NCBI GenBank assembly: GCA_951812925.1
Contig: OX638370.1
Coordinates: 121,968,897-122,032,896 of the forward strand
Direction: 5' to 3'
From: Calliopum simillimum
Taxonomy: Eukaryota > Arthropoda > Insecta > Diptera > Lauxaniidae
DNA length: 64,000 bases
Shown here: positions 1-58,601 of the stretch, in pieces
Numbering within the stretch: position 1 is the first letter of the stretch
Layout: each line of letters starts with the position of its first letter
The notes under the pieces: generated by a model
What the model was told of the DNA's origin: nothing
What the model saw: only the letters and a program-made list of their open reading frames with translations
The model's database searches: none
Translations under genes and position numbers: made by a program

Positions 1-177
1 TAAGTACTGCACACTACTTCCAATCTTTCATTCAAAAAAGATTACTTACCTATTATATTCAAACCTATGAACATACAAATGTCCAATTTAAGTTCTATTC
101 TAGACTTTAAGCTCTAAAATCTAAGTAATTATTTAGTTATATCATAAATACATATAAATAAATATAAAATATTACAG

Positions 178-464
178 ATTTCTTGATGACATCTATAATA
201 TCAAAATTAGATACCATTATGGAAAAACAACCAAAAACCGCAGCAGAACGGTGTAAAGAATATAGAGCACGTAAAAAACAAACTATACCAACGCCCATGA
301 AAAAGCGGCCGAAAACAGCAGCAGAACGCTGTAGAGAATATAGAGCACGTAAAAAAGCTTTAAAAATGCAAAATAAAGTCGACATTCAGGCATGTTCTGA
401 AATACGAATCACTTCGGAATTGGAATTAAATCAATCTTCAAAAGCTCCGCATTTCGGTAATTAA
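178..464 (+). CDS. Exon with two basic AAER repeats (cassette 1, 3' end disrupted)
   Basis: The exon follows an acceptor (tattacag) and reads in phase 1; the first ATG is at 186. Two repeats resembling KTAAERCREYRARKK are separated by a short TPMKKRP linker. The same acceptor, phase and leading residues (FL-TS) recur in the exon at 1090, so the two are duplicates. From about 388 the frame runs into a 204-bp inverted-repeat insertion and stops at 464; the original tail survives as noncoding sequence at 592-660. The function of this repeat is unknown to me; its high Arg/Lys content suggests nucleic-acid binding (inference). No header exon lies upstream in the window, so the 5' part would be to the left. 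It could be a live exon with a new tail or a broken duplicate. Confidence 0.5.
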
Positions 465-591
465 CATCAAATCGGATTTATGTTTCGGTAGGTCGAATAG
501 GAACCAATGGCAAATTTTATTTGTTGAAATACAAATCTGAAGATTGATTTAATTCCGATATCGAAGTTATTTGGATTTAAGAACATGCCTG
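388..591. repeat. Foldback MITE inserted in cassette 1
   Basis: Positions 388-440 and 539-591 are imperfect inverted repeats of about 53 bp, with a perfect CAGGCATGTTCT terminus. The sequence is absent from the paralogous exon at 1090-1514, which gives the empty-site comparison. It introduces the new stop at 462-464. No clear target-site duplication was seen. Confidence 0.75.
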
Positions 592-1089
592 TATGTTAAC
601 GATTTTTCAAAATCGTTCGGAGCTGCAAATCAAGAAAGAAAAATATTTATATGTATATTTAAGTATTATTTACTATATATTTTAGTAAAGTTAGATTATT
701 ATTTAGTTTTGTAGTATAAAATAGTTAATTTATATATCATTTAGGTAATCACTTTGTAAACGCATAAACATTTTATAAACCGTGTTAACCACATTATCAT
801 TCATCAATTGGACACAATATAAATTGTCTATTTCAATGGATAGATGCACACTGTGTTATGTTGTTAGCGCAATCTGAGCATTTTGTTACTGTTTTTCAGT
901 GTTTTATAACATACTTCTGGGATGGTACGAAAAAGTTCAGTGAGCGAGAAAAACTTCAATGCTTAGTGCTAACTTATTATTTCTATTATATTCATATGGT
1001 TTTAGTTTTTACAACTAAAGTTTTGAAACATATGATCCTTAAACCTAAGTATTATTTAATATCTAATCATACAATATAAAATATTACAG
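592..1089. other. Exon tail remnant and AT-rich spacer
   Basis: About 592-660 matches the 3' end of the exon at 1090-1514 (a GATTTTTCAAAATCGTT-like stretch) and is the displaced tail of cassette 1. The remainder is AT-rich; I see no gene in it. Confidence 0.5.
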
Positions 1090-1514
1090 ATTTCTTGGTG
1101 ACATCTCTATCATCAAATAATTATGAAAATTTTGAAATTGCTTATGAAGATGAACTAAGTGCCATTGCGGAAAACCGAGCGAAAACAGCAGCAGAACGCT
1201 CAAGAGAATATAGAGCACGTAAAAAGTTTATGTTTAGGAAAACACCAGCTAAAACATCATCGGAACGTTCAAAAGAATGTAGGGCACGACGTCAAAAAAT
1301 TAATAAAAAAATGAAAATCGCACATAGCATATTTGACATTTCCATACTATGCGAAGAACAACATATAAATACTCCTGTGAAAAAATGTCCAAAAACACCA
1401 GCCGAACGTGCTAAAGCATATAGAGAGCGAAAAAAAGCTTTAAAAATGCAATATGAAGCCGATACTGTAAATGATTTTTCAAAGTGGTTGGGAACTGCAA
1501 TTGAAAAAATATGA
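1090..1514 (+). CDS. Exon with three basic AAER repeats (cassette 2)
   Basis: The exon begins after the acceptor atattacag in phase 1 and stays open to the stop ending at 1514. It holds three repeats: RAKTAAERSREYRARKK, AKTSSERSKECRARR and CPKTPAERAKAYRERKK. There is no in-frame ATG near the start, so an upstream exon must supply translation start. It is the intact duplicate of cassette 1. The repeat type occurs in poorly characterised insect proteins; I do not recognise a function. Stop codon and position suit a terminal exon. Confidence 0.6.
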
Positions 1515-1896
1515 AATAATTTACTACCACCTACTGCTATATTTTATATTGTAAGATTATTATTTAGATTTATAATATATATAGATACGTAAATCATTTA
1601 TTTTTAAATTGTACAATTATAAAATCGCCAAGGTTAGCTGTCGCTATTTCATATTACTCCGAAGTCAAGTATTTTTAAACATACAAAATACATAATACTT
1701 CTGCAAAAAGTATATCATTGTGTTTTTTTTATTATAATTATACGAGAGCTTTAGTTGCATTTGAAAATTATGAGAAAAAATTGTTATTATATACCTAGGG
1801 TGTATTGCATAAGGTAACGAGTCTTCTCGGAGGTGATAGAGGAGGCCTAGACCAATAAAAAATAAGCACAAAATAATTTTTTATTATTAATTTCAG
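1515..1896. other. Intergenic or intronic AT-rich sequence
   Basis: No coding signal was found. From about 1800 the sequence becomes paralogous to 7050-7119, marking the left edge of the duplicated DUF4806 unit. Confidence 0.5.
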
Positions 1897-3605
1897 AATA
1901 TATTGATATGTCAGAGATTTACGATGACGCAAATAGAAGCACCAAACAATTTTATTATGATACTACGAAAGCAACAGAAATTGAAAGTCCACCTGGCACA
2001 TCAGGATTACAATCATATAAGACAGCCCAGGTGAAAGATCTAAAGTCTTCACAGAACTTTTCGACTTCGGCATCAGTACAGAAAATTTTGTTGAATTTAC
2101 CAAGATCAACAGCTGCATTATTTTTGGAACTAGAGGAAGAAGTAAAAAAGGAGGAAAATGAAAGAGCTTTGGTAATAAATTTTATTTTTTTACGATTCTA
2201 ATAAAAAAAAAATAATAATAAGGAAGTGAAACTTATATTTGAAAAGGAGGCGCGACATAAATTGAGTATCTGGATATTCTTCGTTTTGACTACGAAGTTT
2301 AGGAGTGACCTTCGGAAGCATTCAGATATCCCGGGAAAAGAATAAATTAAAGCTTATTGATATTCTGCCATAGAAGCTTTTCCTCTAGTATATCTAGATA
2401 TACTTTGTTTCGACTATGAAGCTTTCGGATGAACTTCGAATGTTCCAAGAAATAAATCGTTGAAAGTTTCTTGTAAATCTGGATATACTTCGTTTTGACT
2501 ATGAAGCCTTCGGGAACCTTCAAATTTGTTGATAGTCCGCCATAGATGTTTACCTCTTGTATATCTAGATAGTCTTCGTTTTGACTTCGGGTGTCCCAGA
2601 AAAATATCAGTTAAGGCAACTTGATAGTCTTTCATAGATAATTTCCCTCTAGTATACCTAGTCATTGGCCCTATGCTCCTCCTAGGAGTTAAAGGAGAAT
2701 ACATACATACATACCTAGATATTCTCCGTTTTGATTATAAAGCCTTCGAGCGAACTTTCGTCAAAATAGCTTCAATGGTTTGCGAGATATAATGGGATGT
2801 AACGAAAAGTGTCGCAAAAATGACTCGCAAAAGTGTCGCGGTCTTGAAATTTTACACCTAACGCAGTCAAAGAAGTTTCACTTCACTTCAAAATTCCACA
2901 CTTTATTTAATTAATAATTCTGTGCAAATAAAACTAACATTAAATGTATTTTAGATCAAAATATTCAAAAATATATCGAACATCACACTCGATAAATATG
3001 TTCGAAGTTGCTTAAAAACTATTGTGACGGACCAGGTAGCTTGTGGTTTTTCGTGGTTTGGCCATTATGGGAATGTACCCGTACATTCCTTCAAGTTAAT
3101 GAATATTATCAAAGGTAAATTTTAATATGTATTATGTTTGTACCCCAATAAGTGAAAATATCCTTAATTCCAAGAAAAAACGCCCATGGAACTATACCTC
3201 TACATTGAACTTTAGCTCGCCACATTTGAGTCTGAATATTTTGAATTTGGGTCTGTTGAATTCAATAAGTATGTATGCAAGCTCAAACAAAAATTTGCCA
3301 AACTAAAGTTGAAAGTAGAAGCATAGTTTCATGAGCATTTTTTTTTCTTCTTAGAATTGGGAGTACTTTCAAGTACAGGATCAAACCGAGGCCGTTTGGA
3401 ATATAGCCCAACCCTAATGTTCATATACTTATATAGTAGTTTTATTGGAATAAATTTAACTTATGAGTGTATATTCATTGCAGAATGTTCAAATGAAAGA
3501 TTTCCGAACTCAAAAGTTGATGATGTTGTATACATAATTAAAAAGTGGTTCCAATATGTAAAGGATAGACAACGCAGAAAGTCCAAATTGCCATTAAATA
3601 AATAA
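1897..3605 (+). CDS. DUF4806-like three-exon module A (headless paralogue, internal deletion)
   Basis: Exons 1897-2171, 2955-3114 and 3484-3605 join in phase (entry phase 1, then 0, then 1) to a TAA at 3605. They match 7120-7490, 8139-8298 and 9959-10080 of the complete ZAD-1 gene. The domain resembles DUF4806: an acidic ELEEEVKKEENERAL start, a middle exon with VACGFSWFGHYGN, and a basic C-terminus ending KSKLPLNK. Compared with copy B, exon 1 lacks about 34 codons forming a Leu/Glu-rich coiled coil just after LQSY; the deletion keeps frame. No ZAD header precedes it within the window. DUF4806 has no assigned function that I know. Confidence 0.6.
2240..2760. repeat. Degenerate minisatellite in intron 1 of module A
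   Basis: Imperfect tandem units of roughly 90 bp carry a motif like ATATACTTCGTTTTGACTAT followed by GAAGC-TTCGG. The same array is at about 7580-7960 in module B. At 2664-2706 it includes a CTCCTAGGAG-centred short repeat followed by CATA units. Confidence 0.55.
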
Positions 3606-4544: not shown

Positions 4545-4653
4545 GGGGGTTATCGTGAATCAATATTCCCGGGGAATTTTTTTCAGACAGCCGTGCATTC
4601 TCTATTGTAGTTTCAGAAAAATTCCTCGGGAATATTGATTCACGATAACCCTC
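4545..4653. repeat. Short foldback element, GGGGGTTATCGTG family
   Basis: 109 bp whose ends are inverted repeats (GGGGGTTATCGTGAATCAAT and its complement), with a central GCATTCTCTATTGTAGT. Related copies are at 24856-24970 and 45578-45677, with half copies near 18311 and 61501. Confidence 0.75.
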
Positions 4654-5681: not shown

Positions 5682-6152
5682 ATTGTTTTTTTTTTCTGCA
5701 CAGTACCTATAGTTCGAATTCAAAATTAAAACATTTTATTATGCACTCTGCATTTCACTAAATTTTTATAATGGTGAAACTTTGGAGCCAAGATTTGAAT
5801 AACTACCAATTATTGCGTTGTTTTTGAAATAAAAACACAGATTTTTAATGCTAAGGCCCTCATTCAGACTCCAAGTGGGACTTGATTTCACGCACTATAA
5901 TTAAAACTAAGTTCAAGCCAACAATATCATCTGATCCATGCTTGTTTGATAACAAATTAATTTAGTTGCTAATTATAAAGCTTTGGTGAGATTAGTAAGA
6001 TAAGTATTATATAAATTCTTTGTCTCCTTTCGGTGCCCTACCAAATATGCTTTTCAGTGTTAAAAGCATAAAAAGGGATCAGTGTTGTTTTCACTAACAA
6101 AAAGTAGTAGAAGCCTTTCGAGTGCGCCACAACACAGTTTTAATTTGTCTTT

Positions 6153-6173
6153 TGTATAAAGTTGGCAACGTTA
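6153..6173 (+). promoter_or_regulatory. Putative core promoter of ZAD-1
   Basis: GTATAAAGTTGGCAACGTTA combines a TATA-like box with the element GTTGGCAACG, about 140 bp before the ATG. The same string precedes ZAD-2 (10664-10684), and GTTGGCAACG precedes ZAD-3 on the minus strand (58592-58601). Conservation across all three headers is the evidence; function is inferred. Confidence 0.5.
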
Positions 6174-6304
6174 GTGCGTGTTTTGTCAGCAATGCAATTT
6201 TTTTTTGTGTTGTCTATACTATACATACTTCAAAGTTAATTAATTAATTAATTGCCTAAAAAACTACTTTCAATCTTAAAGGACAATTTGGCATAAGTAA
6301 AAAA

Positions 6305-9300
6305 ATGTTACAGATTCATCGATATAATTTGCAACATTTTTGTCGTACATGTTTGGGTCAGCTGCAAACGGATGCATCCCATTATCACATTGGCCAGACG
6401 CCGAATCTTACAAAGCTTTTAGTTATTTGTACGTCTTTGAATATCAATGGTGATGATGCAGTGTATCCACAATGGCTGTGTGAAAAGTGCTATGATATGT
6501 TACACAATTTTCGCAACTTCCGCGAAATGACAACACGCTCTGCAGAATTGCAACAGAAGATTGTTAAAGAGTCAACTGATCATTATACAAATCCTGCAAC
6601 TTCCACTTGTGATGAATACCTTCTGGTAAGTACTTACCGACATACTTTAAAAATGTGCTATATATTTGTTTTTTTTTTTTTTTTTTAGACAAATCAGGAT
6701 GTGAAAATTGAAATAGGAGCTACACGTATGTTGGAAAGCTATTGTAGAAATGAGAAAGATAATTTTGATGATATTTTGGACTCAGACTCGTCAGCTCAAT
6801 CTACATCGACAGCAAAAAAACGTAAACAGCACAATGAGTCAGGTAATTATAAAAGCTATAAAAGTTTAACCGTTTTTTATGTAGACACAGCAGTCCTTAA
6901 TATTATTGCATTTAATTTGTGCAGAAAAATAAAAGAAAAGAATAAATAAATAATAAGAAACTTGGAAAGCCAACACACGGTGTAATCACCTTTACCAAAG
7001 GTTTTCAACTTCACACATCAGTCTGTTTTATTGTTTATTTTTTTTTAACGAATCTTCTGGGAGCTGAAAGAGGACTAACAGAAAATAAGCATAAAATAAT
7101 TTTATATTATTAATTCCAGAATATCTTGATATGTCAGAGATTTGCGATGACGCAAATAGAAGCACCGAACAATTTTATTATGATACTACGATAGCAACAG
7201 AAATTGAAAGTCTACCTGGCACATCAGGATTACAATCATATAACCGTTGCGAGACATATAACTTGGTGGAAGAAAATAACGCTATTTTGAAAGAGGCTCT
7301 TAAAGAGCTCAAGTATTTGCGGCAAGAGCAAAAAACTCTGTGTGGAGAGGTACAAGATCTAAAGTCTTCGCAGGACTTTTCGACTTCGGCATCATTACCG
7401 AAAATTTTTTTAAATTTACCAAGACCAACAGCTGCATTATTTTTGGAACTAGAGGAAGAAGTAAAAAAGGAGGAAAATGAAAGAGCTTTGGTAATAAATT
7501 TTATTTTTTACGGTTCTAATAAAATAATAATAAGGAAGTGAAACTTATATTTGAAAAGGAGGCGCGACATCAATTGAATAACTGGATATCCTTCGTTTTG
7601 ACTATGAAGTTTAGAAGAGACCTTCGGAAACATTCAGGTATCCCGGGAAAAGAATAAATTAAAGCTTATTGATATTCTGCCATAGATATATCTGTCTAGG
7701 TATACTTTGTTTCGACTGTGAAGCTTTCGGATGAACTTCGGATGTCCCAAGAAATGAATCATTGAAAATTTCTTGTAAATCTAGATATACTTCGTTTTGA
7801 CTATGAAACCTTCGGGAACCTACAGATGACCCAGAAAATAAATCAGTTAGAATTTGTTGACAGTCCGCCATATATGTTTTACCACTTATATACCTAGATA
7901 TTCTTCTTTTTGACTATAAAGCCTTCGAGCGAACTTCAGGTGTTCCGAAAACCTACCAAGCACGAAATTTCGTCAAAGTAGCTTCTATGGTTTGCGAGAT
8001 ATAATAGAATGACACGAAAAGTGTCGCGGCCTTCAAATTTTACACCTAACGCAGTCAAAGAAGTTTCACTTCAAAAATCCACACTTTACTTATTTAATAA
8101 TATTTGTGCAAATAAAACTAACGTTAAATGTATTTTAGATCAAAACATTCAAAAATATATCGGACATCGCACTCGATAAATATGTTCGAAGTTGCTTAAA
8201 AACTATTGTGACGGACCAGGTAGCTTGTGGTTTTTCGTGGTTTGGCCATCATGAGAATGTACCCGTACATTCCTTCAATTTAATGAATATTATCAAAGGT
8301 AAATTTTAATATGTAGGGTAGAATGGGGAGTTGTGCGACAGGTTTTGTTTCAGGGAAAAAAAAAACTACAATTCATTTTTGTTAGCATCTCAGTATATAC
8401 AATCTCTAGTATCCTTCAAAACACAACTTCTGGCTAGAAGGTTCGATTGAAATTTAAAAGTTATGCTTGTTGGCGCAAAAGACTCGTTTTTGGGGAGTTG
8501 TGCAACACGGAGGGAGTTGTGCAACACGGAGGGAGTTGTGCAACACGGAGGGAGTTGTGCAACACGGAGGGAGTTGTGCAACACGGAGGGAGTTGTGCAA
8601 CACCGAGGGAGTTGTGCAACACGGAGGGAGTTGTGCAACACGGAGGGAGTTGTGCAACACGGAGGGAGTTGTGCAACACGGAGGGAGTTGTGCAACACGG
8701 AGGGAGTTGTGCAACACGGAGGGAGTTGTGCAACACGGAGGGAGTTGTGCAACACAGCTTTAAATTAAAGAAAATTACATATTTTGATGAATATTCTTTA
8801 TTAAATTAACTCTTTGATTGCAGCCACTAAGGCATTGATATCACTCGCTGGTTTTCTGGTCACACGATAGTTATGACGTAGCATGATGACTTTCTACAAA
8901 AATAACGAAAAACCACGAATAAAATCAAGAAAAATACTAAATTTGGGGAAGAAAATCCATCAAATTGCATGAAACATACGAAATATTGACAAAAATGCAA
9001 ACTCTGGCTGAAAACTGTTAAATTTTTGTTGCGCAACTCCCCACTTTCAACATAATCAAAATGGCCACCGCGTCTTCGATACATCGAATGTTTGTGTGTC
9101 ATTACTTTCATGAGTTGGAAGGTTATTCACAAAGGAATGTTTTGTATATATTGACCCTTATGATCAGTTTTAATAAGTCAACACAAGAGGTCAATGAAAC
9201 TTTCCGACAAATTTTTCAACGCACAGTGAAGAGCGACGCGAAGAATATGTGTTGACGCGACGAGTGCTTGTGAAAAAGTTAGATCGTAGCGAGACAAACA

Positions 9301-10816: not shown

Positions 10817-11356
10817 ATGTTGCAGATTCATCGAAATAATTTGCAACATTTTTGTCGTACATGTTTGGGTCAGCTGCAAACGGATGCATCCAATTATCAC
10901 ATTGGCCAGACGCCGAATCTTACAAAGCTTTTAGTTATTTGTACGTCTTTGAATATCAATGGTGATGATGCAGTGTATCCACAATGGCTGTGTGAAAAGT
11001 GCTATGATATGTTACACAATTTTCGCAACTTCCGCGAAATGACAACACGCTCTGCAGAAATGCTGCAGAAGATTGTTAAAGAGTCGAGTGATCATTATAC
11101 AAATCCTGCAACTTCCACTAGTGATGAATACCTTCTGGTAAGTACTTACCGACATACTTTAAAAATGTGCTATATATATTTGTTTTTTTTTTTTTTTTTT
11201 AGACAAATCAAGATGTGAAAATTGAAATTGGAGCTACACATATGTTGGAAAGCTATTGTAGAAATGAGAAAGATAATTTTGATGATATTTTGGACTCAGA
11301 CTCGTCAGCTCCATCTACATCGACAGCAAAAAAACGTAAACAACAGAATGAATCAG
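10817..11356 (+). CDS. ZAD header exons (ZAD-2)
   Basis: Exons 10817-11137 (phase 0 donor gtaagt) and 11203-11356 (phase 1 donor gtaact) encode a ZAD with CRTC and CEKC pairs and the acidic exon ending STAKKRKQQNES. The protein differs from ZAD-1 at only a few residues (for example SHYH/SNYH, AELQ/AEML), so it is a recent tandem duplicate. It has no DUF4806 module immediately downstream; the next phase-compatible acceptors are the RYREK exon (12790) and the hAT module (13426). Either one or both complete the gene, or the header is orphaned. Confidence 0.8.
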
Positions 11357-12176: not shown

Positions 12177-12789
12177 AATTGTCTCCTTATCCATTACATT
12201 GAGATCAGAAAAAGGTCAATTGTCTCTGCATTACATTCGGACCAGAAAAAGCTCGTTTTTTATTAACTTCAAAAAAATTAATATTATATACAAATTTTAC
12301 ACAAAAACGTCAAAAGGTTTCTTAGTCGAATTTATTTAATTAAAATTTTGTTTACTAATTTTTTTTTATCATTTTATACCTCTCAGTCTAATTGTGTACA
12401 AATTCATAGAAATTTAAAAATTGGAATTGAAAATCACCAAGTGTAGGATTTGAACCCGGGTCTCTCCAGGCATCGCAAGTCATTAGACAAATACTCTTCT
12501 TCACAATCGACAAACTTCCAAACAGTGCCGTAGTCAGTAAAGTTTTAATATCACTGACAGAATCTTTTGGTTCTACTTAATGACGAATTATGCATTACAT
12601 TTGGACCATTTTTGATACAAACGACCGACTTTGCACTACATTTGAACCATGTATCCCTTATTTCAGACAAAATTTCTTTAAAGAAATCAGTTTATTTTCT
12701 GTACGGCAAACTTAATAAAGAAATAAATCCAATGGAAAAACCTGAGTGAAGCTGAATCTTTTTTTTTTTTTTTTTTCTAATTTAAATAG
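12177..12789. other. Noncoding spacer with a tRNA-like B box
   Basis: Minus-strand GGGTTCAAATCC near 12445-12456 looks like a pol III B box, but there is no complete tRNA. No gene was found. Confidence 0.35.
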
Positions 12790-13082
12790 TCGGCAATGTT
12801 GTGAAGCAGGAAGGTATGGCAAACGAAAAAAAGAAAGCAACTTCAAAAGACCGCATGAAACGATATAGAGAAAAACTCAAACTAAATCCTGAACTTTTTA
12901 GAGCACAATCGGAAAAAAATAAAAACTATCAAACAAAATATTGGAATAAACTTAAAACGGATCCTGATAAATGCAAGAAAATTAAATCTACAGCATATGC
13001 AAGATTAAAAAAATGGAGAGAAAAGAAAAAGAAACCAATTGAAGGGGAACAACTATATTTTCCTTGCCCAGATTTTACCTAA
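12790..13082 (+). CDS. Lys/Arg-rich RYREK exon (terminal cassette)
   Basis: The acceptor follows a poly-T tract and aaatag at 12789; the exon reads phase 1 (TC GGC AAT) to TAA at 13082, with an ATG at 12816. The protein is extremely basic and has the motif MKRYREKLKLNPE plus a second degenerate copy ending KKWREKKKKP. Such RYREKLK-NP repeats occur in uncharacterised arthropod proteins and recall the AAER repeats of 178-1514. AATAAA follows at about 13126. It lies 1.4 kb downstream of ZAD-2 and is phase-compatible with it. Function unknown; nucleic-acid binding is a guess from charge. Confidence 0.6.
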
Positions 13083-13425
13083 GTGAAGCTGTAGTATTTA
13101 TTAAAGAAGAATTTGAATTTTTAAAATAAATTTTTTTTATTTTATTTACGTTTTTCTTTTTGAACTTTGGAAAACCTGCTAGTGATAGTTTTTTTGTTGC
13201 ATTCATTATGTTTAAATCATAAAATTTAATTGAAAAATTCTAGCAATTTCTCTATCGCTCTTAGTAACAAGACCTCTTGACTTGGTATTGACAAATTCTA
13301 GAGTTATTTAGACAAAAACCTTTCATTGCACAAAACTTTTACGTTTACAATCCATTATCTGAAGCATAGACTTTAGAGTTCTTATTCTTAATAATTATTT
13401 TTAATAATAATAATGAACTTTTAAG

Positions 13426-16400: not shown

Positions 16401-18863
16401 GGGTGCAAAAGTCGAGAAAATCAGTTTTTTGAAAATTGATTTTGAAATTACTATAACTATGCCTACGTCATGGTATCATGGCTGCATTTTTTTGTGGGTA
16501 TTCTTCCAATAGTGGGTACTGACTTTTGTTTCAGTCAAACCGTGAGAGGTGGTGCCTTCGTGAGATATCGGGTGCGGAAGGTAGAGAAAATCAGTTTTTT
16601 GAAAGTTGATTTTCAAATTACTATAACTATGATCGATGTCTCGCGAAGGCACCACCTCTCACGGTTTGACTAAAACAAAAGTTGGTACCCACTACTGGAA
16701 AAATACCAACAAAAAAATTCAACCATGATACTATGACGTAGGCGTAGTTATAGTGCTTTGAAAATCAACACTCATATTATGAACACTTGCATGCGGAAAA
16801 TACCTTAAAATAGGATATCTCCTAAGCTGTGGATCGTACGAAAACAACTTGCACCACTTTTTGGTATGAAATTTTCTGAGCTACAAAATTGTGGAGAAAA
16901 ATTTTTTTGTAGACATAAGCGTAATCGAGATACTAATTTTCTCGACCTTTGTGCCTGAATAACTTTTTGAACGACAGTGAAATTGGTCTCGAATTTTGGT
17001 GCATACTTTGAAACTATAAAATAGACCGACTAAAGGAAAAAAAATATGGATTTTATGTGTTGGATCGGAAGGTCCAATTTCACTGGACCATATCTCCTAA
17101 ACTATAGGTCGTGCGAAAACAATTTGCACCATTTTTCGATATGAAATTTAATGAGCTACAAAATTGTGGAAACTATTTTTTTTGTAGATGTAACCGTTAG
17201 CGAAATATTTGCAAAAAACTGTTTTTCTCGACCTTTTGCGCCCGATATCTCACGTAGGCACCACCTCTCAGGAATTCACTAGAACAGAAGTTCATACCTA
17301 CTATTGGAAGAACACTCACAAAAAAATTCAGCTTTGATACTATGAGGAGGGTCAGCCAAGCGCTGGCTCTTAGTCTATTTATTTTGATTTGGAAAAAGAT
17401 TATTTTTAATCGGAAGAGGATGAATTTGGTGTGAAAAGGTTTAACTTGAAAGGAAATAAGTTTATTCGCAATAAGTTTTAGTGCCTTGAAACCAAAAATT
17501 TTAATCGGCTTATTTGATATCTAAAAGATATTTCATTAATATGCACTTTTATTTAGCTTATATAAAGTCAAAAAAAATGTATACACGGATGGATTACCCT
17601 TGCCATATATACTTTCCTGTGGATTTTTTGTGGTGGTAACTGAGGTGAGATTGTTTTGAAAAAGTATGTGTATTTACAAAAACAAGTTGTTATTTGCAGT
17701 TGAATAGTTCTAAACATGAAATAGTTTCTGGTGGTTGCATAGCAGAATGTCAAATTTGTAAAATAAAACTTCGAGGATCCAAAAGGGTGACATCAAATTT
17801 TTTACAACATTTAAAAACTAAACACCCAAAACATCATAATGAATACTTACTACAAAAAAAGAGTGATGTATTGCCAAGTCGCGCTGAAACAAAACACAAG
17901 AAATTTGAAGCAAAAATATTGAAGTTTGTTGTAACAACATTCTCACCACTGTCAATAGTGGAGCACCCAGCATTTGTAATGTTATTTGAAAATGAAAATG
18001 TTTCTCTTCGTTGTATATCAAATCTTTTAGATTTGAAATATTCGGATATGACAACGAGAATTAAAAGCGACTTAAATTTGGTAAGATAGAATTTGAGCAA
18101 AATAAATGGCGTTAGGTAATAACACCCACTTAAATAACGCAAAAAAAAAAAAAACGAAATAACCCCCAAATTATTTTCATATACGAGGGGCCTAACAAAA
18201 GTTCGCTTAGTTGAATTGAAAAAACTTTTAAATTTAATTTTTTAAATTTATAACGTTATTTTTCATCCATTTGTATTTTTTCAACGTAATCGCCATTCAT
18301 TTTGATACTTCCCCGGGAGTCGTGATTCACGATAACCCCCATTATCTCCTCATTGCTGTTGAAGACTCTCCCTCTCAAATTTTTTTTATTTTTGGAAACA
18401 ACCAGAAGTCACAAGGCGCTGGATCTGGGGAATAAAGAGCTGGACGAATTTCTTCGACGCCAGAAAGAAAAATAAAATCGGTCGTTTTTTCAGCAGTGTG
18501 CGCCAGCGCATTATCGTGAAGTAGAAAGTACCAGCGTAGCTCCTTTTTTTGGCGTTTTCCCAATAAACTTTGGAAAACTTTTGGTAAGCAGGTTTCAGTA
18601 TACCACTAAGCAGTAACCGTCTGACCTTTTTTCAAAGGAATAACAGCTACAACTTTCTCTCTGGTGAATTAAACTGATATCATTACTTTTGTTGCTGACT
18701 TTTTATACCCTACACCCAGGGTATATTCACTTTGTCCTTCCGTTTGTAACGCAGAGAAGGAGGCGTGGCAGGTATAGAAAAGTATATATATTCTTGATCA
18801 GCGTCACCTCCTGAGTCGATATAGCCATGTCCGTCCGTCTGTCTGGCTGGCTGGCTGGCTGGG

Positions 18864-18901
<38 letters not shown>

Positions 18902-27027: not shown

Positions 27028-29126
27028 CTAATTGTCAAGATTACACTTTAATAGGGCTCTTTTTTCAAACATTTCATCAAATAACTCCGGGTCACTGGAC
27101 ATATTGTGCATGGTTGTCAACAAAAATGGAATTTCCAAAAGCCTTGACGATGATAAAGGCGTATTATGTTTTATGAATATTGCCTTTATTTCTGGATAAC
27201 GATGAAGAATCTCAACATGCTGGCTTTTCTCCGCAAAGAAATTTGTCATCATTAAATTGGCTTTATATAATTGCAATTGATTTGTTACTGTCAGTGAATC
27301 GTCAGAGTCCGAATCAGAGCCAAAGTCAAACCACGAGTCGTCACATTTAGATATAGAGGGTTTCTTATCGATATCTACAGTTTCATTTAGATTTTCATTT
27401 ATTGCTTTTGAAATGGCGCTTTTAAATATTTTCAATATCCCCTCAGCATCTGAACTCCCTAAACATGTAAGCCATGAATCCTTGAAACGTGGATGGGACA
27501 AGGCAGCAAGTGCTGCATTTTCTGCTTCCTGTGTAATTAATTTATAATAGCATTCAAATCGTATGGCAATACTTTCTTCATATGCCTTAACAAGCGCATT
27601 GCAATAAACGAAATCTTTCTTCTTTTGGATTTTCTGAAATTTTAATCTCAAAGCCATAAGCGTTGGCAGCACATAGCCATAAAAAGAATTTTCATCGCTC
27701 TGTATGATTTCCAAAGCTTTTGCAATCGGTGTTGTACAAACTAAATATTCTTGTATATACTGATATTCTGCTTCTTCAAAGGGCTGCGGCATATTTAGCA
27801 CCTGTTGTAGCTTAAGCATTTTTTCTTTTAATTTGGAAATTTGTTCCAAAGCATTGAAAATTGTATTAAAATTGCTTTCATCAGGACATTGCAATGTACA
27901 TTGTAGGATTTGTTGCGTTATTTCCTCTGTTTCTGGGCGGCATGCCGCTATCCAGAGTTTAACACATTTTTGCATGACATTTTTGTGCATATTTGATAGT
28001 GGAGTGTCATACGCTTTTAACACTTTGATGGCGTCCATAGTTGCACATAATGTTAAGATATATGCAAAATAATTCAAATGCCCAGGAATTGTAGCTAAAC
28101 ATTTTCCTATCTCCTCAGGTGGAAGTGATTCAGTCGATTGTGTTTTATTTTCTTCATTATCTATCATATCGCTGTCAAAAAGGTTTACTCCGAGTGCCTT
28201 AAACATCTCGACCAAGTTACTGCCATTGTTGGTAAGGGAGGCTACAATTTTATTTTCATTGAGATTGAAATATGCGTTCACTGCCTTTGCTGTCTTCAGT
28301 ATGCGTTCGTGACTCGGTATATTTCTATATCTTTTACAATCCAATGTTATTGACTTTCTAGTTAGCTCAGCGGTTACCCAATGTGCAGACATTACCACAA
28401 TAGTGTCACTATTACTAGACCATATATCAGCTGTAGTACATATGTTATCAATATAATCATTATGCAATTCAGCTTTTATTTTATTTATTTGCCTTACATA
28501 ATAATTTTCAATAGCGAATTTCAATTCTTTTTTGTTCATAACTTTGAGACCGTTTTCCAAATCTGTGAAAGTTCTTATAAAGTATGGATCTTCAACAATT
28601 TCTAGCGGTATCATGGAGTGTATAAAGAATTTGGTAATATTTGTATTGAATTGTTCAAGGTTTGTCAGTATTTGCTTCGGAATGAATTTAGTCCACCTCT
28701 TCTTATCGCTACCTGATGTATCATTATCTGTTATCACTTTCTCCTTTTTCTTATGTTGTAAATGTATTTTATATTCTTGCACACATTCCTGTCCATGTTT
28801 CCTTTTCAAGTGACTTAAAAAGTTCGATGAACAATTGTTATAACCCCGTAGCTTAACACTATGTGGCCAACATTTCATGCACATTGCTACAATACTGCTA
28901 TCGGTGGATTCTTCTGGTACATATTTGAAAAATGTACCATCCAAAAAGTTTAATCGGGATAATGACGCATATGAAGTAGGAACTGCGGATGTAGATGATG
29001 ACGCAGCTGTTGATTCTGGTTCCTGTCGTTCAAAAGTTTCCGAAATGTTCATAGAAGTGTTGCTGTTTTCAGATTCATCCATATCAATGTTAGATATTTC
29101 ATGCTTTACATTACGCCTACGTTGAC
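27028..29126 (-). CDS. hAT transposase-derived exon, probably domesticated (hAT-2)
   Basis: A single exon opens after acceptor ttattcag at 29127, entry phase 1, with the first ATG at 29082 (684 residues from there) and TAG at 27028. Order: Ser/Glu-rich leader, BED finger (CMKC, HLKRKHG), CTTADIWSS with the first catalytic Asp, ASLTNNGSN where the usual second Asp (TDNGSN) is Asn, FYGYVLPTL, and a degenerate dimerisation tail NTPLSSSRLLEIPFL instead of the usual ERLFS. The uninterrupted frame with lost catalytic and dimerisation residues suggests a host DNA-binding protein and not an active transposase. Fourteen residues are open upstream of the ATG, consistent with splicing from an upstream header. 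Closest in the window to hAT-1. Confidence 0.8.
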
Positions 29127-30652: not shown

Positions 30653-30788
30653 ATTGCAATTGAATTTCAACGTTACACAGTTTTCCTCACTTACTTAAGT
30701 TGCAGTTCGTCAATACAAAAGACCAATTAATTGATTTGCATTGCACAGCTGCAACTTTAGTCAGACGCGTTGATATTCCGAATCACTC

Positions 30789-30803
30789 ATGTATTATGAA
30801 TAA
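30789..30803 (+). promoter_or_regulatory. Four-codon upstream ORF overlapping the trehalase start
   Basis: ATG TAT TAT GAA TAA is the first ATG after the inferred transcription start and overlaps the ATG at 30796 in another frame. It may reduce use of the 30796 start and favour ATG 30907 (inference). Confidence 0.45.
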
Positions 30804-33572: not shown

Positions 33573-34192
33573 CCCTTGCACGGATAAAGATGAAAAATAA
33601 AACACATGTGTTTTGTTGGTATACAATTAAAATGGTTTTATTGAAATAAAATAATAAAAAATTAAGGTGTGCAATATACATTGTTTATGTTTTATGGTGT
33701 GATATGACGCTCGTGATAATCCATGAAACAATTTTTGGCCCTTGAGAAACATAAATGTAAGTTACATTTTGTACAAAAAGTGTGAGTCTCAGATTTCTTG
33801 CACAGTTTGCATGATTTTTTTGAACCCCAATAAGGAATATGGTTCAGTTGGTCATACCTTATGCCCTCGAGGGGGTGTACTGCTCTTTTACCAACTGCTC
33901 GTTTAGGTAGTCCCAAATGAAACCACCAATCATTTTCTGAAATACAACAACAAAACATTAATACTTTTTTTTCAAGTAAGAGTAACAAAATAACTACTTT
34001 TTGAAATTGAAATTTTATTATTCTAAATTCCACAATACTTAATGCGTCTGTTTTCGCTACGGTTAACACTCATTGGAATCGATGAGTGCGCCCAGTCAAT
34101 GACAAAAGAACGCATATCTGAACGCGCAACAAACACATGATTTGATAAAGAATAAGCAAAGACTTCTGCAGACGGTCCTGCCCGTCAAAGGG
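33573..34192. mobile_element. 620-bp piggyBac-type deletion derivative containing an exon
   Basis: TTAA at 33569-33572 and 34193-34196 flank termini CCCTTGCACGG and (complement) CCCTTTGACGGGC, as expected of piggyBac elements with TTAA target duplication. It retains only the last coding exon (33692-33936, -), with its acceptor. Subterminal CACATG motifs occur on both sides. Confidence 0.8.
33692..33936 (-). CDS. piggyBac-type cysteine-rich terminal exon C
   Basis: Acceptor gtatttcag, entry phase 1, ending TAA at 33692. The 80 residues contain RYDQLNHIPYWG, then CKLCKK, CTKCNLHLC and CF--YH, the C-terminal zinc-binding cysteine-rich domain of piggyBac transposases that binds element ends. No catalytic DDE part is nearby. 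It lies inside a TTAA-flanked element, so the exon came with a piggyBac insertion. It could be the leftover 3' exon of a dead element, or be spliced to a host 5' exon such as ZAD-3. Confidence 0.7.
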
Positions 34193-34626: not shown

Positions 34627-34862
34627 CTAGTGAATCAAATTAAAGCAGTCTAGGCACATTTGCGGTAATCCCGGACACTGTTGACAGTAAGTATTTACAG
34701 ATTTTGCTCGTCGTCGTGCAATCTCACGGCCTTCTTTTTGCTTAAGATTAGAGTAACAATGATGACATAATCTGCGTATTCTTTTTCCTTTATCGTCGAT
34801 TCGTTGCGCAAAATAATGTCTATCTGGATGATAAGAGCTCGCAAAAATATGTTGTTCAGTAG
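34627..34862 (-). CDS. piggyBac-type cysteine-rich terminal exon B
   Basis: Acceptor tttttaag at 34863, entry phase 1, open to TAG at 34627. Cysteines: LCHHC, YCQQC and MCLDCF, spaced like a piggyBac C-terminal cross-brace zinc domain but of a different subfamily from exons A and C; a basic segment EIARRRAKS lies between the pairs. No start codon at the front. A terminal exon by its stop codon. Confidence 0.6.
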
Positions 34863-35076: not shown

Positions 35077-35375
35077 TCATTTTAAATGTAAATGAAATTT
35101 TAAAAAACAATTTTTTTCTCTTGTCAAGCATAAATGGATTTTACATTTTGAACACTGTATGCGCGATTTTCCAGTGCAATGCTGTAGTTTACATCGGGTT
35201 GCATGATTGATATTATCATGTGGAGGGAAATGACCGATTTTATCAAATCTAATATCGGCTATTGGACGCATTTCAGCTTTGTAACAGGAATTATATGGTT
35301 GATATTCCTTCGCTTGCATAAGTGGTCTCCCAAGTTTTTTGCATTCCATTTTGTCCTTAGTTGCTTGTACAAACT
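35077..35375 (-). CDS. piggyBac-type cysteine-rich terminal exon A
   Basis: Acceptor cacttctag at 35376, entry phase 1, open to TGA at 35077. It begins with the KKLGRPLMQ linker usual before the domain in piggyBac-like proteins, then IRFDKIGHFPPH, CKLQHC, CSKCKIHLC and CFLKFH. No transposase core is present. Third member of a tight row of similar terminal exons sharing entry phase. Confidence 0.65.
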
Positions 35376-44398: not shown

Positions 44399-45261
44399 TT
44401 ACTCATCACTAACGTCACTTGCCAGTCCATAATCTTCGTCATCTTCGGGAACTAAAGTGCTCGACAAAGACACCTTGGTTTCATCACAAAGTCGACAATA
44501 GTCGGAATGTCGCCGTTTAAAAGTTAGATTATATTCAGTGTTGAAGATTTGTCTGAAAACGTATTGACTGACGAACGGCTGCTTCTTAAATTCACGAGGT
44601 TCTTTATATGCGCCATACAATTCTACCAAACTCAATGTGTGGTGCAAATATTTTCGCTGTGAGTTGTAGCGCCCACAATGTGATTCATATGATGGAATGG
44701 AATCGATGAATTTTCGCACATCATTTTTTAGAACTACAGATGTTTTATTGTAAGGAGGAAATTTACCGCGATTTTCCAAGGCACCTGGATTTGACTGTGA
44801 TGATTTTAGTGCTCTATGAATTCGGCTTGGCGTGATCTGTAGGCATTTCAAATAGAAATCTCGGCAGACTTCTTGCTGTAAGCCGCTGTCATTTTCAAAT
44901 GAGTAAATATGATGGAAATCTTTGCCACTTATTTTGATTAATGGATATTTAGACGATTTTCTTTCTTTTACAGGTTTTCGTATCACGGTTTGACGAATAA
45001 AACTGGTCTTTTGAGACCAAGACATGTTGTTATAAAAGTCCTCAAAAATCTTCTTTTGGCGGTCAATAGCAATTTTGGTGGGGCAGCTTTGAATTGGAAT
45101 TGTATTTTTTGTAGCCATACATTTGCAAATCGTTTGCTCATTGAATAATGTTGCTGCAATTATCTTCGTATTGGTTTTTCTCTCTGCACCATGCTCAACA
45201 AGCTCTTTTCGAACATATGACTTATGTTTCTGAAACATTCGCATTCTTTTATGAGGCAGAA
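44399..45261 (-). CDS. Transposase-like N-terminal half, terminal exon
   Basis: Acceptor tctttacag at 45262; reads 287 codons to TGA. It joins in phase to the exon at 46251-46373. Recognisable stretches: GKFPPYNKTS, SHCGRYNSQRKYL, VFRQIFNTEYNLTF and YCRLCDE, the N-terminal half of a large family of uncharacterised insect proteins (transposase-like, often paired with a C-terminal DUF7869-type domain; name uncertain). The usual C-terminal half is missing and the protein ends in an acidic EDDEDYGL tail, so it is a truncated, perhaps co-opted, version. The preceding exon contains a stop codon. Confidence 0.55.
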
Positions 45262-45577
45262 CTGTAAAGAAATTTATAAAATATTTTAATAAATTTTTTG
45301 GTCATTGACTTTATGAATTACATTTCTTCATCGAGACCAATTAGATTTGTTTGGTTTAAGTACTTACCATAATTATTTTCTTTGTCCGAAAACATTAATT
45401 CGTGAGGTGCTGTATTTTTCGTGTTACAATACCTAACGCATACCTAATCGTTTTCTAAGGATTTGTACCTACACTTTTCCAACTAAACTCTTTTATAAAA
45501 TGCATAAAAAGGAAATGGGGAAAAAGAACAATCCAAGCTCACCATTAAAGCTGCCTGACGATTAGAAAATACATATT

Positions 45578-52263: not shown

Positions 52264-52289
52264 TGACTCTGTTGTTATCAGTAATAGAA

Positions 52290-54296: not shown

Positions 54297-54423
54297 AGGG
54301 TATTCATTAAATCGTATAAATGCCTCGAAAACCTCGTAAACTCGTAATAATTGTCAAAATCAATACGAACTTTTGCAGTTTTACGAGACTTTCGAGGCTT
54401 TTACACGTTTTAAAGAACACCCC
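54297..54423. repeat. Small hairpin inside piggyBac
   Basis: About 127 bp with inverted CCTCGAAAACCTCGTAAA / TTTACGAGACTTTCGAGG; sits just upstream of the transposase N-terminus. Confidence 0.6.
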
Positions 54424-54439
54424 AATTTTATTTTCGAAC

Positions 54440-56240
54440 AAAACTAGATATAACCAAGAAGCTCAGTGACAAAGAGATTGACGATTTTTTAAATGATAGT
54501 GATGCTGAACTATCTGAAGAAGAAAACGATATTTACGAGGCCATCCTTCAGCAAGTGCAGGATTCTTTCGAAGATTGTGTTATTGAGCAGTTAGACGAAA
54601 ACGTTCTTATTCAACAAGCGCAAGTAGATTGTGTTGAAGAAAACATTGCCGAAATCGCTTCTACCAATTGTGCATCAACTGATGCTGCTCGGTCGCAAAA
54701 TTTAAAGTGGCTAAATAAAGGGTAGCAATACAAATGGTCCTTAATGATTTCCTTCTTATACGGTATGTTTTCTTTGGTTTCCTTAGGTTTTCTGCTCAAC
54801 CTTCATGTGATAATTTACTCCTTTATGATGATGATACTCCAGAAAGTATTTTAGACGCCTTTATGGAATATTTAGGAATGCCTTTTTGGGAACAAACCGC
54901 ACTAGTTACAAATTGCCATGCATTTCAGGAATTAAACCACCAATTCTTAAATACTTCTGCAGAAGAACTTTTGCATTTGACAGGATGTCATATTCTCATG
55001 GGATGTTTAGGATATCCGCAGCTAAAAATGTATTGGTCTAATGAGTTTCGGGTTGCAAAAATTGCCGATTGTATGTCTAGAAACCGGTTTTGTCAACTTC
55101 GACGCTTCCTGCGATTTTCTGAAGAAATTGAAAACTGCAAGTCAGATCGACTTTGGAAAATAAGACCATTTCTTGAACCTATCCTGAAGAAATGTAAGAC
55201 ATTGCCCATTCCGTATCATATATCGGTTGATGAGCAGATGATCCCATTTTCAGGACGATGCGCATTCCGTCAATATATGCCTGCAAAACCAAATCCACTT
55301 GGTCTTAAAAATTTCGTACTTGCTGCCAGTGACGGTTTAGTTTTGAATTTTCATATTTATACTGGTAAAGGATCTGTAGATGCTTCTTACTAATATCATA
55401 CCACATGAAGGCTGTGTATATACAGATAGATTTTTTACAAGTTTAAAATGTATCGAAGTTCTTAGAGAAAATAATATTTACCAAACTGGTACAGTTATGA
55501 AGAATCGCATTGGACCTGTCATAAACAAATTTAAAGATGATAAAGTTTTGAAGAGAGGTGAGTGGGACGAATTGGTACGAGAAGACGACCAGATCACTGC
55601 AGTCAAATGGAAGGACAACAAAAGTGTGCTTCTTTTATCTTCATATGTTGGAGCTCAGCCAGAAGTTGAATGTCAGCGGTGGTCTAAAGAACATGCTTCG
55701 AGAATCACGTTACCTCAACCAGCCGTTGTAAGTATGTACAACAAATATATGGGCGGAGTAGATCTCTGTGACCGTTACATTGAATATTATCGGTCTTATT
55801 TGCGTACTAAGAAGTGGACAGTAAGAGCCTTCAACCATTTCATTGATTTTGTTATAGTTAACTGCTGGATAATGCATAATAGGCAGCATTATAAGAAGAT
55901 AAAGACACTTCTCGATTATAAACTGCACGTGGGAAAATGCTTGATAGGCTTTTCAAGTAAAGCGCGAGAAGCGAGTGCCTCAAAGCAATCAAATCCAATT
56001 TCACAGTTTGAAAATGATTTGACCGAATGCAGTAAACGCAGGAAAGTGTACATGCCACTGGTTGCAGAAGAACGATTCGATGGTTTTGAGCACTGTCCAA
56101 AGTTTGTTGAATCAAACTATGCATCTAAATGTCGGAACTCAGGCTGCACTTCAAGAACTCGTACAATGTGCACAAAATGTAATTTGTATCTTTGTACTAA
56201 TAGCAATAATTGCTTTTTAAAATACCATCAAAAATCATAA
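54440..56240 (+). pseudogene. piggyBac transposase with one frameshift
   Basis: An acidic N-terminal exon (to 54721) joins across a 65-nt intron (54722-54786) to the core. Core pieces are 54787-55393 and, one frame over, 55380-56240. Visible: VDEQMIPFSG (first Asp), YTDRFFTS (second), NKYMGGVDLCDR (third), then the C-terminal cysteine-rich domain (CRNSGC, CTKCNLYLC, CFLKYH). The frame changes near 55380 after TGKGSVDA, with a TAA in the first frame, so this copy cannot make full-length enzyme. No clear start ATG is seen in frame upstream. Confidence 0.85.
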
Positions 56241-57076
56241 AAATATATAAGTATATGCATTTAATCATTTGGATACTGCTAAATTCTTATTTCACCATAT
56301 GTGATCAATGTTTTGTTCCTTTTTTTATATATCATATATATATTTACTTCTTAAAAGTTCAAACAATAGTAATACTAGATAAAAATTTAAATGAATTCTC
56401 TTTTTTTTTAAGTTCTTAAACATTAGAGGTATTCACGATCTAGAGTAACGTCCTGAGAAACAGAGTAACAGGGTAATAGTGCACAACCACAACAACAAAA
56501 TATACGTAAGTTACTCTGTTACTCTTTTACCCTTTTAGTCAAGCTATTTTCTAGTGTAAAATAATCTTACACTTTTGCCTTTTTTTTTACTATTTCTATT
56601 TCTATAGAAACGTTTGAACTTGTTTATGATTGAGAGGCAATTTTCGTTCATCAAAAATAAAAATTTGAATGAGAGCAAAATATTCAATTAAAAAATTTTT
56701 TTTTTTGTTGGCAGCTAAAATTATTTTGAGAAACAAAAAGCAAATATAAGTGCAAAGTATTGAGTATGCTCACTATTCAGAGTAACTGAGTTCACTTTTA
56801 CCCTGTTACTCAGCTTGTTACTCCAGATCGTGAATAACTCTATTGTTAATTTTTATTTCAATTAAATTTTGAATAAAAGCAATGAAAAAAAAATTCGAAT
56901 TTTTCATGGAAGATCAACCGAAGTGCACATATGTGTACCTTTAAAAACTATTATTTACAAAATTTTTTTTAAAATTTTTTTCGCAGAAATGAGTTATTTG
57001 GACCCAATTTAGTAAAAATAACTCTTCAAAAGTTATATTTCACTTGTATTTTGGGTGCGGGATCGAAGAGGTTAAC

Positions 57077-57955
57077 AATTGAGGGGGTTAGAAGCAAAGG
57101 GGTACAAGTAACAAAAAGTAAATTTTGAGTTAAATATAGTTAAAGTTAACGTTGCTTCATAAATTGCAGAGTGAGTTAAAAAATAAAATATTGCACGTCA
57201 AATAACATTTAAAGTATGCTCCATCTAATGTTTTTTTCAAATTTTTTCTATGAGTCCCCCTTTAAAAGTTATAAGTATTTCAGTGAAAGCCTACACCATT
57301 TTACTCAAATTTTTTTTTGTAGTAAAAATGGAGTAAAGTTAGCACCGTGTAGCAACTAACATAGCAAAAGAAAAAACTAAGTACCATAACTCTAAGAATC
57401 TTTAAAACGTTCTCTGTTAAAGGTATTTTTAAAATTTTTATAGAGGTCCGCTTTTAAAAGTTATTAGTATTTTACTGAAAGCCTACCGCACTCGTTACTT
57501 TTCATTTCAAAACGAAAATATTTTATTCAATATTTTAAACTCGTTTAGAAGCAAAGGGGTACCATTCGGTAGACTTTCACTAAAGTACTAATAACTTTTA
57601 AAAACAAACCTCTAGAAAATTTTTAAAAAATACCATAAAAAGGGAATTTTTCAAGGATTCTTAAAAATGAGGTATTTAATTTTTTCTTAACCTATGTTAG
57701 ATGATACGCTGCGCTAACTTTGCTTCTTATTTACTAGAAAAAAATTTTTTTGAATTTTGTTTTAAAGCAAAACTATAATTTTGTGAACTTGCTTACCTTA
57801 ATGGGGCTCTATAGAGGTGTAGAAACACAAAAGCTTAAGTAATGTTTGTTTCATAAATAAAGCAAAGCTTCCACTACCTATTCTCATACTTAACTCAATT
57901 TTTCGTAATTTGTCACTTGTACCCCTTTGCTTCTAACCCACTCAATTGTTAACAA
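57077..57955. mobile_element. 0.9-kb hairpin element split by piggyBac
   Basis: CAATTGAGGGGGTTAGAAGC at 57077 pairs with its complement near 57930-57950; the outer GTTAAC of the left arm was the piggyBac target. No gene. Confidence 0.6.
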
Positions 57956-58083
57956 TTTTTTGAACGCGAACAAAGCTATTATTTGTGAAAATAAATAAAT
58001 GAAAATGAAATGAATGAAGTATGGTTTAAACTGAATTGGGGTTTTGGGAGCTTATGTAAAGTTTAACCATCAATTTTACTCAC

Positions 58084-58476
58084 CGAATCACTCGTATCAT
58101 TCAAGTACCCATCCTCGTTAATTGCACTATTTGAGGCAGCATTTTGGTCTTCAAGCTCTTTCTCAGTCAGCACCACTTCTTGCTCTTCCCCATCTTTTTT
58201 TAATACAATTTCTCGCAAGACTTCAGCAGATTGTTGTGCCATATCGCGGAAATCACGAAACTGCTGCATCGTATCATAACATTTTTTACACAAACTTTGT
58301 GGGTATATTCCATCGGTATCTTCGTTTATATTTAATGAAGTGCAAACAATTAGCAACTTTGTTAAATTGGGTGTCTGGCTGATGTTGAAGTTTGATGATG
58401 CGGTCGGCGACGACTGAAAGTGATCCAGGCAAGTTCGACAGAAAGATTGCAGATTACTTCGCCGCATTTTTATCAT
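58084..58476 (-). CDS. ZAD-3 header exon 1
   Basis: ATG at 58476 (a second at 58467 aligns better with ZAD-1), donor gtgagt at 58083, phase 0. The ZAD has CRTC and CKKC pairs with the same spacing and the conserved QTPNLTKLL--CTSLNIN run shared with ZAD-1/2; after it comes an acidic stretch (DGEEQEVVLTEKELEDQ). It joins in phase to 47294 over a 10.8-kb intron filled with transposons. GTTGGCAACG lies 116 bp upstream, as for ZAD-1/2. A ZAD transcription-factor-like protein; partner cassettes unresolved. Confidence 0.8.
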
Positions 58477-58591
58477 GATTTGTTGTTAAAGTAGGTCTAT
58501 TTTATTTTATTTTATGTTAATATTGCGTTCTTCACTTTAATTAAAATCGTGAGCAAATCAAGACGCGAAAATAATGGATGTTTATGTATAA

Positions 58592-58601
58592 CGTTGCCAA
58601 C
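58592..58601 (-). promoter_or_regulatory. GTTGGCAACG promoter element of ZAD-3
   Basis: Ten-base identity with the elements before ZAD-1 and ZAD-2 although ZAD-3 is otherwise diverged. Confidence 0.45.

Follow-up and report, generated by a model that had tools for sequence, protein, structure and literature searches.

The 64-kb window analysed here, C3:121,968,897-122,032,896 of the 690-Mb genome of the fly Calliopum simillimum (contig OX638370.1), holds gene starts ('headers') that encode a ZAD domain, together with open exons ('cassettes', named by their first base) that could serve as their 3' ends. We regard the chances as roughly even that these cassettes are cis-spliced alternative 3' terminal exons behind ZAD starts, arranged in two arrays. 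For the analysis 100-kb flanks were added on either side, giving 264 kb, and positions to the left of the window are written as negative numbers. The headers, their donors, the open frames and phases of the cassettes and their order along each strand are directly visible in the DNA, as is the repeat status of the cassettes with which the genome was searched (35375, 34862, 1090, -1194 and 29126; those at 33936, 178 and -5861 had no searches of their own).

ZAD headers with an open phase-1 donor

The original prediction named three ZAD headers, each ending after exon 2 in a phase-1 donor, and these were borne out. PF07776 (zf-AD) exceeded its cut-off in all three window header open reading frames (ORFs), and the donors lie at the 99.3-99.9 percentile of the 26,634 scored GT in the 264 kb. 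Header A (plus strand) has exon 1 at 6305-6625, which holds the ZAD (zf-AD E 2e-11), and exon 2 at 6689-6842, with 6842 as last exon base and the donor at 6843 (99.4 percentile). Header B (plus strand) consists of exon 1 at 10817-11137 and exon 2 at 11203-11356 (zf-AD E 5.5e-12); its last exon base is 11356 and its donor lies at 11357 (99.3 percentile). Header C (minus strand) has exon 1 at 58476-58084 with the ZAD (zf-AD E 2.8e-11) and exon 2 at 47294-47033, followed after its last base, 47033, by a donor at 47032 (99.9 percentile). Two further plus-strand headers were recognized by paralogy with those in the window, one at -18833 in the left flank with its donor at -17710, the other at 74847 in the right flank. 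Five paralogous ZAD headers (-18833, 6305, 10817, 58476 and 74847) are thus found within about 94 kb. In all but 74847, exon 1 closes in phase 0 and exon 2 runs up to a donor of phase 1, that of -18833 scoring in the same range as the other three; by eye, the first splice of -18833 uses a GC donor. Headers A and B share 94% DNA identity over 6025-6941 (0.9 kb) and 94% amino acid identity, and are evidently recent tandem duplicates. The ratio of nonsynonymous to synonymous substitution rates (dN/dS) was 0.23 and 0.25 in two of the three ZAD exon pairs tried and 0.51 in the young pair 6305/10817.

Exon 2 of 58476 ends after a single C2H2 finger, inside H-A-T-G, and exon 2 of -18833 ends after one C2H2 finger, recognized by eye, inside H-D-T-G. 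It is at this H-x-T-G point that a finger array would run on through its TGEKP linker. Because exon 2 stops in the linker after one finger, both headers look like ZAD-zinc-finger (ZAD-ZNF) genes truncated behind their initial finger. In place of a C-terminal C2H2 array there is one finger each in header C and, by eye, in -18833. A strict C2H2 pattern run over the same 264 kb, which is not exhaustive and overlooks the finger of -18833, matched only the finger of header C; the donors therefore seem to need another type of 3' exon. Sister ZAD headers, 34-55% identical, lie at C5:48.59-48.81 Mb, and the one sister locus for which 3.2 kb was read looks like an ordinary ZAD gene whose finger array continues after a phase-0 intron.

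No BTB was among the Pfam matches of the three window header ORFs at the listing limit of E 0.01, NCBIfam held no family for the three proteins submitted, and a PDB sequence search with the ZAD gave a weak match to 7pok (E 0.06). A protein library of 5.8 billion sequences, insects included, yielded no match to header C at E 1e-5 among 78 candidates of similar length and none to a header-plus-cassette alignment at E 1e-6 among 2994 such candidates, cut-offs so strict that a lone 45-bit ZAD match would fail and orthologues may have been missed.

Cassettes behind header C on the minus strand

Five cassettes lie 11.7 to 23.8 kb downstream of 47033. Three of them encode a cysteine-rich domain (CRD). 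Those at 35077..35375 and 33692..33936 are of piggyBac type and have strong phase-1 acceptors, while that at 34627..34862 resembles a piggyBac CRD and has a phase-1 AAG acceptor after a long T tract. A piggyBac-type transposon copy with a frame break, at 54414..56240, occupies intron 1 of header C on the opposite (plus) strand and matches DDE_Tnp_1_7 (PF13843) with E 2e-31 and 3e-25 in two ORFs scanned separately. Cassette 35375 matches the tail of this copy (55380-56240) at 41% (E 3e-14), and 33936 matches the copy at 38%. By sequence comparison, then, the CRD exons are related to the tail of the transposon copy, and their phase is that of the headers. Of 246 candidate genome relatives of 35375, 150 were scored; the matches among them that lie elsewhere than in the locus are nearly all at most 48% identical, many of them in ORFs of 350-726 codons. 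Cassette 34862 keeps three C-x2-C pairs and the final H; C4 holds two distant relatives (45% and 41%) and C2 a weak third, and its zf-Tnp_2 match (E 0.01) is below the cut-off. In 34862 and 33936, with open frames of 77 and 80 codons, the first Met sits at the far end, behind or within the Cys motif, and as judged from these frames neither can encode its motif from an internal ATG. A PDB sequence search with the CRD gave no relevant match.

The fourth cassette, 27028..29126, is transposase-like, has 699 codons and carries the best acceptor of the set (99.9 percentile, phase 1). Among the 64 scored of 240 candidates its nearest genome relatives are at most 31% identical. It matches no Pfam family at cut-off (zf-BED only at E 0.41), and its BED/hAT label is a presumption based in part on a weak resemblance to a BED-containing ORF at 17649 (44% over 39 residues), for which zf-BED gives E 1.5e-5. 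That ORF belongs to a BED-containing transposase-like sequence, present in pieces at 17649-22189 on the plus strand, a distant relative of 29126 on the opposite strand. Inverted repeats around 29126 are scattered pairs only. No recent copies of 35375, 34862 or 29126 turned up when the genome was searched with them.

The last minus-strand cassette consists of two exons, 23226-23009 and 22953-22800, separated by a phase-0 intron and entered through a phase-1 acceptor. When joined, they match DUF4806 (PF16064) with E 2.4e-11 and 44.2 bits against a cut-off of 25. The earlier DUF4806-like label holds for this pair but not for cassette 7120, which has no Pfam match at 0.01. The exon 22953-22800 ends in a gtaagt donor, and a further exon is to be expected behind the pair. 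DUF4806 has 33 scattered matches in the genome, and those matched by 23226 are at most 47% identical. In an independent ZAD gene at C1:43.31 Mb, the linker is followed by a weak phase-1 donor (0.2) and, 0.2 kb on, by a phase-1 acceptor (2.0) that leads into DUF4806 exons, the same phase-1 ZAD-DUF4806 junction as the candidate at 23226. This stand-alone ZAD-DUF4806 gene occupies C1:43.307-43.313 Mb.

Cassettes behind header -18833 on the plus strand

Four plus-strand cassettes (-5861, -1194, 178 and 1090) lie 11.8 to 18.8 kb downstream of the donor at -17710. The first two, in the left flank, have phase-1 acceptors. The other two, 178..464 and 1090..1514, accept phase 1 through weak acceptors, 178 with a stop inside the exon. 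Basic repeats, in 178 of the form AAERxxEYRARKK, are present in three of the four, with three repeats in 1090. The first ATG of 1090 follows the first of these repeats, which an internal start would drop. Open frames extend over 156 codons in -1194 and 140 in 1090, and the tandem cassettes -1194, 178 and 1090 keep the acceptor TTACAG/ATTTC despite their diverged ends. Genome searches with -1194 and 1090 found no recent copies; outside the locus 1090 gave one weak match (36%, E 0.002) at C5:87.63 Mb, to an exon that sits between ZADs and whose best acceptor is of phase 1. At this C5 site (minus strand), two exons in tandem carry SQRSKEYRERKK/STQRSKELRERQK-type repeats; they are flanked by ZADs and have C2H2 exons next to them. 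The intron between header -18833 and the first cassette contains, at -13230 to -6830 (plus strand), two transposase ORFs that we take to be pogo/Tigger-like; the one tested matched DDE_1 (PF03184) with E 1e-14.

A model of two cis-spliced arrays

In the model suggested by these features, a cluster of five ZAD genes would include at least two that have lost their finger arrays. Exon 2 of -18833 and of 58476 would stop in the linker and leave an open phase-1 donor, which would be joined in cis to one of several downstream 3' terminal exons on the same strand. The minus array of 58476 would comprise three piggyBac-type CRD exons, the transposase-like exon and the DUF4806 end, and the plus array of -18833 would comprise -5861, -1194, 178 and 1090. 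The products would be ZAD proteins with a common dimerisation start and different DNA-binding ends. From the arrangement we infer that splicing joins the cassettes to these headers, that at least two of them serve as ends and that these ends are DNA-binding. In total there are nine candidate terminal exons in phase 1, five on the minus and four on the plus strand, four of the nine with mediocre acceptors. All the convincing cassettes except the DUF4806 pair contain a stop within the exon; the cassettes would therefore exclude one another, with one end per transcript.

A more specific history, which we consider doubtful, is that a ZAD-ZNF gene was broken in its finger linker and that the phase-1 donor became a capture port for transposon-derived ends. 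A piggyBac CRD would have been taken up three times, and a transposase-like exon as well, beside an ancestral DUF4806 end.

Acceptors, phase and internal starts

Acceptors were scored with a Drosophila-like matrix not trained on this genome, and were ranked as percentiles among all AG. Each of the thirteen phase-1 acceptors listed earlier exists and opens a phase-1 frame, but only six are strong. Those of 1897, 7120, 35375, 33936, 29126 and 23226 are at or above the 97th percentile; those of 178, 1090, 12790 and 34862 fall at the 66-86 percentile and those of 13426, 46373 and 43780 at the 33-60 percentile. A scan of 14 ORFs, the longer ones of the original prediction plus added ORFs, found the proposed acceptor to be the top-scoring AG in nine; it was below the top in -1194, 12790, the 17649 ORF and two FLYWCH-like exons of header 74847.

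Phase 1 had been expected in one of three by chance. This expectation was too low. Control ORFs, coding and non-coding mixed, were drawn from the same 264 kb, and of the 415 that could be scored, 184 (44%) had a phase-1 AG as best acceptor near the ORF start. Within coding sequence of the region, too, AG is more frequent in phase 1, as in cassette and header bodies (239/554) and in the trehalase and neighbouring phosphodiesterase-like ORFs described below (97/210). Best scores of at least 3.2 were reached by 67 of the 415 controls, 31 of them in phase 1. Among the 14 ORFs scanned, seven reached this score and all seven were in phase 1; two of the seven are repeats, and the non-repeat ORFs are -5861, 35375, 33936, 29126 and 23226.

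It had also been claimed that most cassettes lack a start of their own. With an ATG within the first 15 full codons taken as an own start, only five of the thirteen (1090, 34862, 33936, 46373 and 43780) lack an early ATG. Of the convincing cassettes, those in the left flank included, all but 34862, 33936 and 1090 have one. Upstream ATG mini-exons were searched for at 12 cassettes, a set without 13426, 46373 and 43780. None with a strong phase-1 donor was found within 1.5 kb of 11 of the 12, a scan in which weaker donors would be missed; at the twelfth, 7120, the match was header exon 2 itself. The repeat copy at 45395, described below, was the positive control, and its mini-exon was recovered. 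Since 70 of 600 random places have such a mini-exon, close to chance, the scan provides only an absence of evidence for own starts.

Rejected cassettes and repeats

Several listed cassettes were rejected. Those at 1897..2171 (plus strand, phase-1 acceptor) and 7120..7490 (plus strand, 277 bp after the donor of header A) are not native but copies of a dispersed repeat. Their relatives on C1 (two) and C4 are 77-93% identical and share the exon and the 34 bases ahead of the acceptor, and three comparisons involving the window copies gave dN/dS of 0.92, 0.62 and 0.82. As 7120 is a repeat copy, the junction 6842-7120 becomes that of a donor beside a repeat insertion, at which 7120 may still be exonised. 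Shortly ahead of a 7120 relative at C1:5.84 Mb, a candidate mini-exon with an ATG and a phase-1 donor can be made out by eye. Cassette 12790 lies in a recently copied 410-bp piece (12705..13114, plus strand; 98.8% identical to C3:102.33 Mb) and was also rejected, as were 13426, 46373 and 43780 for weak acceptors and short open frames of 38, 21 and 40 codons, respectively; 43780 has no Pfam match.

The minus-strand repeat copy at 44399..45395 consists of an ATG mini-exon (45395-45368), a phase-1 intron and an ORF at 45301-44399 that accepts phase 1. A relative on C2, 82% identical, shares the ATG mini-exon and the donor, which marks this copy as a repeat with its own start, and the ORF was rejected as a cassette. 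The repeat ORF is intact (287 codons), has 101 genome matches and belongs to no Pfam family. A tandem repeat at 8390-8809 gives long open frames in all six frames.

Header 74847 seems to be followed by three FLYWCH-like exons in series with phase-2 joins (74847-78801, plus strand; by eye), and these phase-2 acceptors rank second in their ORFs. We rejected it as an array of three cassettes, since the serial phase-2 joins suggest one ordinary gene. Two of the three exons scanned match PF04500 (FLYWCH) at 15.7 and 16.3 bits against a cut-off of 23.6, and the first exon alone has no Pfam match at E 0.01; 'FLYWCH-like' thus denotes a resemblance only. The DNA-binding part of this gene resembles that of mod(mdg4).

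Alternative explanations

The locus could instead be an ordinary, partly decaying tandem ZAD cluster with one constitutive 3' end per header, for example -18833 to -5861 and 58476 to 23226, the other cassettes being orphan exons or transposon relics and their phase inherited or due to chance. We regard this as the main and a serious alternative to the two arrays, though a less likely one. It agrees with the paralogy of the headers, two of which are recent tandem duplicates, with the repeat or recent-copy status of 1897, 7120 and 12790 (dN/dS 0.6-0.9 in all three comparisons with 1897 and 7120), with the fragmentary nature of 13426, 46373 and 43780, and with the C1 gene, in which ZAD-DUF4806 is a simple structure. 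What speaks against it is that -1194, 1090, 34862, 33936 and 29126 keep open frames (156, 140, 77, 80 and 698 codons, respectively) in AT-rich DNA (29-34% G + C among 1090, 34862, 33936 and 29126). They do so despite strong divergence from the relatives found, a state unlikely to result from decay. That the cassettes are separate genes with promoters and first exons of their own, near ZAD genes by accident, appears improbable. Early ATGs in eight of the thirteen listed cassettes, and ATG mini-exons at the 7120 relative (by eye) and at repeat 45395, are in line with such genes; the lack of a strong-donor mini-exon at 11 of 12 cassettes, near chance level as it is, and the inability of 34862 and 33936 to start inside point the other way. 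Less probable still is a lola/mod(mdg4)-like locus with free trans-splicing of headers to cassettes, whatever their strand. Four headers do give phase 1 and the cassettes accept it, and mod(mdg4) has acceptors on both strands (PMC4667647). However, when the flanks are taken into account, each convincing cassette is preceded by a header on the strand it occupies, 178 and 1090 lying behind -18833 and the convincing minus cassettes behind 58476, and cross-strand trans-splicing is therefore not needed. The lola/mod(mdg4)-like logic of the original prediction fits part of its list, in that a ZAD start is followed by several terminal exons of one phase, but a single shared locus does not, given five headers over ~94 kb, three of thirteen cassettes that are repeat or recent copies and three that are unsupported.

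The two-array model itself has a number of observations to contend with. Phase by itself carries modest weight, because 44% would be of phase 1 by chance and the independent cassette families are few (basic-repeat, CRD, transposase-like and DUF4806; 0.44^4 = 0.04). Four cassettes have mediocre acceptors, namely -1194 (where it ranks only third in the ORF), 178, 1090 and 34862, and 11 of 16 acceptor places, repeats included, have an early ATG and thus a possible separate gene start. A poly(A) hexamer follows within 250 nt of 12 of 16 stops, compared with 52% of random stretches, which is of little help. The basic repeats gave dN/dS of 0.53 and 0.35 (both comparisons made) from uncertain alignments, and the structure model of the CRD, with a predicted local distance difference test score (pLDDT) of 51, was too poor for use. 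The locus is rich in transposons, and header 74847 looks like the start of an ordinary multi-exon gene, in which case not every header makes an array.

Neighbouring genes

At 30664-32553 on the plus strand, a trehalase ORF (PF01204, E 2.4e-174) runs through 629 codons with no stop. Its nearest relative in the protein library is from Teleopsis dalmanni (75%). It occupies the long intron 2 of the minus-strand ZAD gene in antisense orientation, perhaps as a nested gene or as a retrocopy. Near the right end, 62330-63160 (plus strand) encodes a phosphodiesterase-type domain (PF01663, E 2.7e-18), followed in the right flank by a long membrane-protein-like ORF at 64427-66421; together these presumably form a PIG-N type gene.

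Comparison with known systems

Like mod(mdg4) and lola, the candidate arrays would combine a common interaction-domain start with several terminal exons for different DNA-binding ends. The locus is not a member of the lola/mod(mdg4) class, however, as its common start contains no BTB. It has a ZAD in that place and five duplicated headers, and it does not need trans-splicing; its candidate ends are of the CRD, transposase-like, DUF4806 and basic-repeat types. The ends of mod(mdg4) are mostly FLYWCH (PMC4667647, PMC11426971), and across eight insect species surveyed, trans-splicing was conserved only for mod(mdg4)-like events (PMC4667647).

Other insect ZAD-ZNF genes share the ZAD start, tandem clusters and lineage-specific expansion, but no finger array beyond one finger was found here. 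D. melanogaster has 91 ZAD-ZNF genes, partly clustered, and five ZAD proteins without C2H2 (PMC7655104). The gene cucoid has alternative 3' ends in mosquitoes, and the shorter isoforms are described as lacking some fingers (PMC9810180), not as carrying other domains. At C1:43.31 Mb the ZAD linker likewise meets DUF4806 in a phase-1 junction, but in that ZAD-DUF4806 gene the header and DUF4806 exons are adjacent, with no array in the 3.2 kb read. No description of a ZAD locus of the present type was found among the listed titles and abstract openings of open-licence papers.

The capture of transposase parts has precedents. In primates, a piggyBac-derived element within a gene provides an alternative 3' terminal exon in CSB-PGBD3 (PMC3902484); there the transposase domain is in one gene, whereas here only the C-terminal CRD is present, three in a row behind a ZAD. 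In vertebrates, host domains are spliced to transposase-derived DNA-binding domains in KRABINER and other fusions (Cosby et al. 2021, as described in PMC8616336). These fusions likewise join a regulatory domain to a transposase-derived DNA-binding end by alternative splicing, for which our locus is a candidate; they use KRAB or SCAN, in contrast to an insect ZAD with several candidate captured ends per start. If the capture history outlined above is correct, the locus would be a ZAD-based equivalent of lola, in which an insect gene acquired transposase parts one after another as alternative 3' exons. Were a ZAD start to exchange complete DNA-binding ends through splicing, this would be a second route, in parallel with transposase capture in vertebrates, and the choice among alternative last exons could be studied in a case other than BTB.

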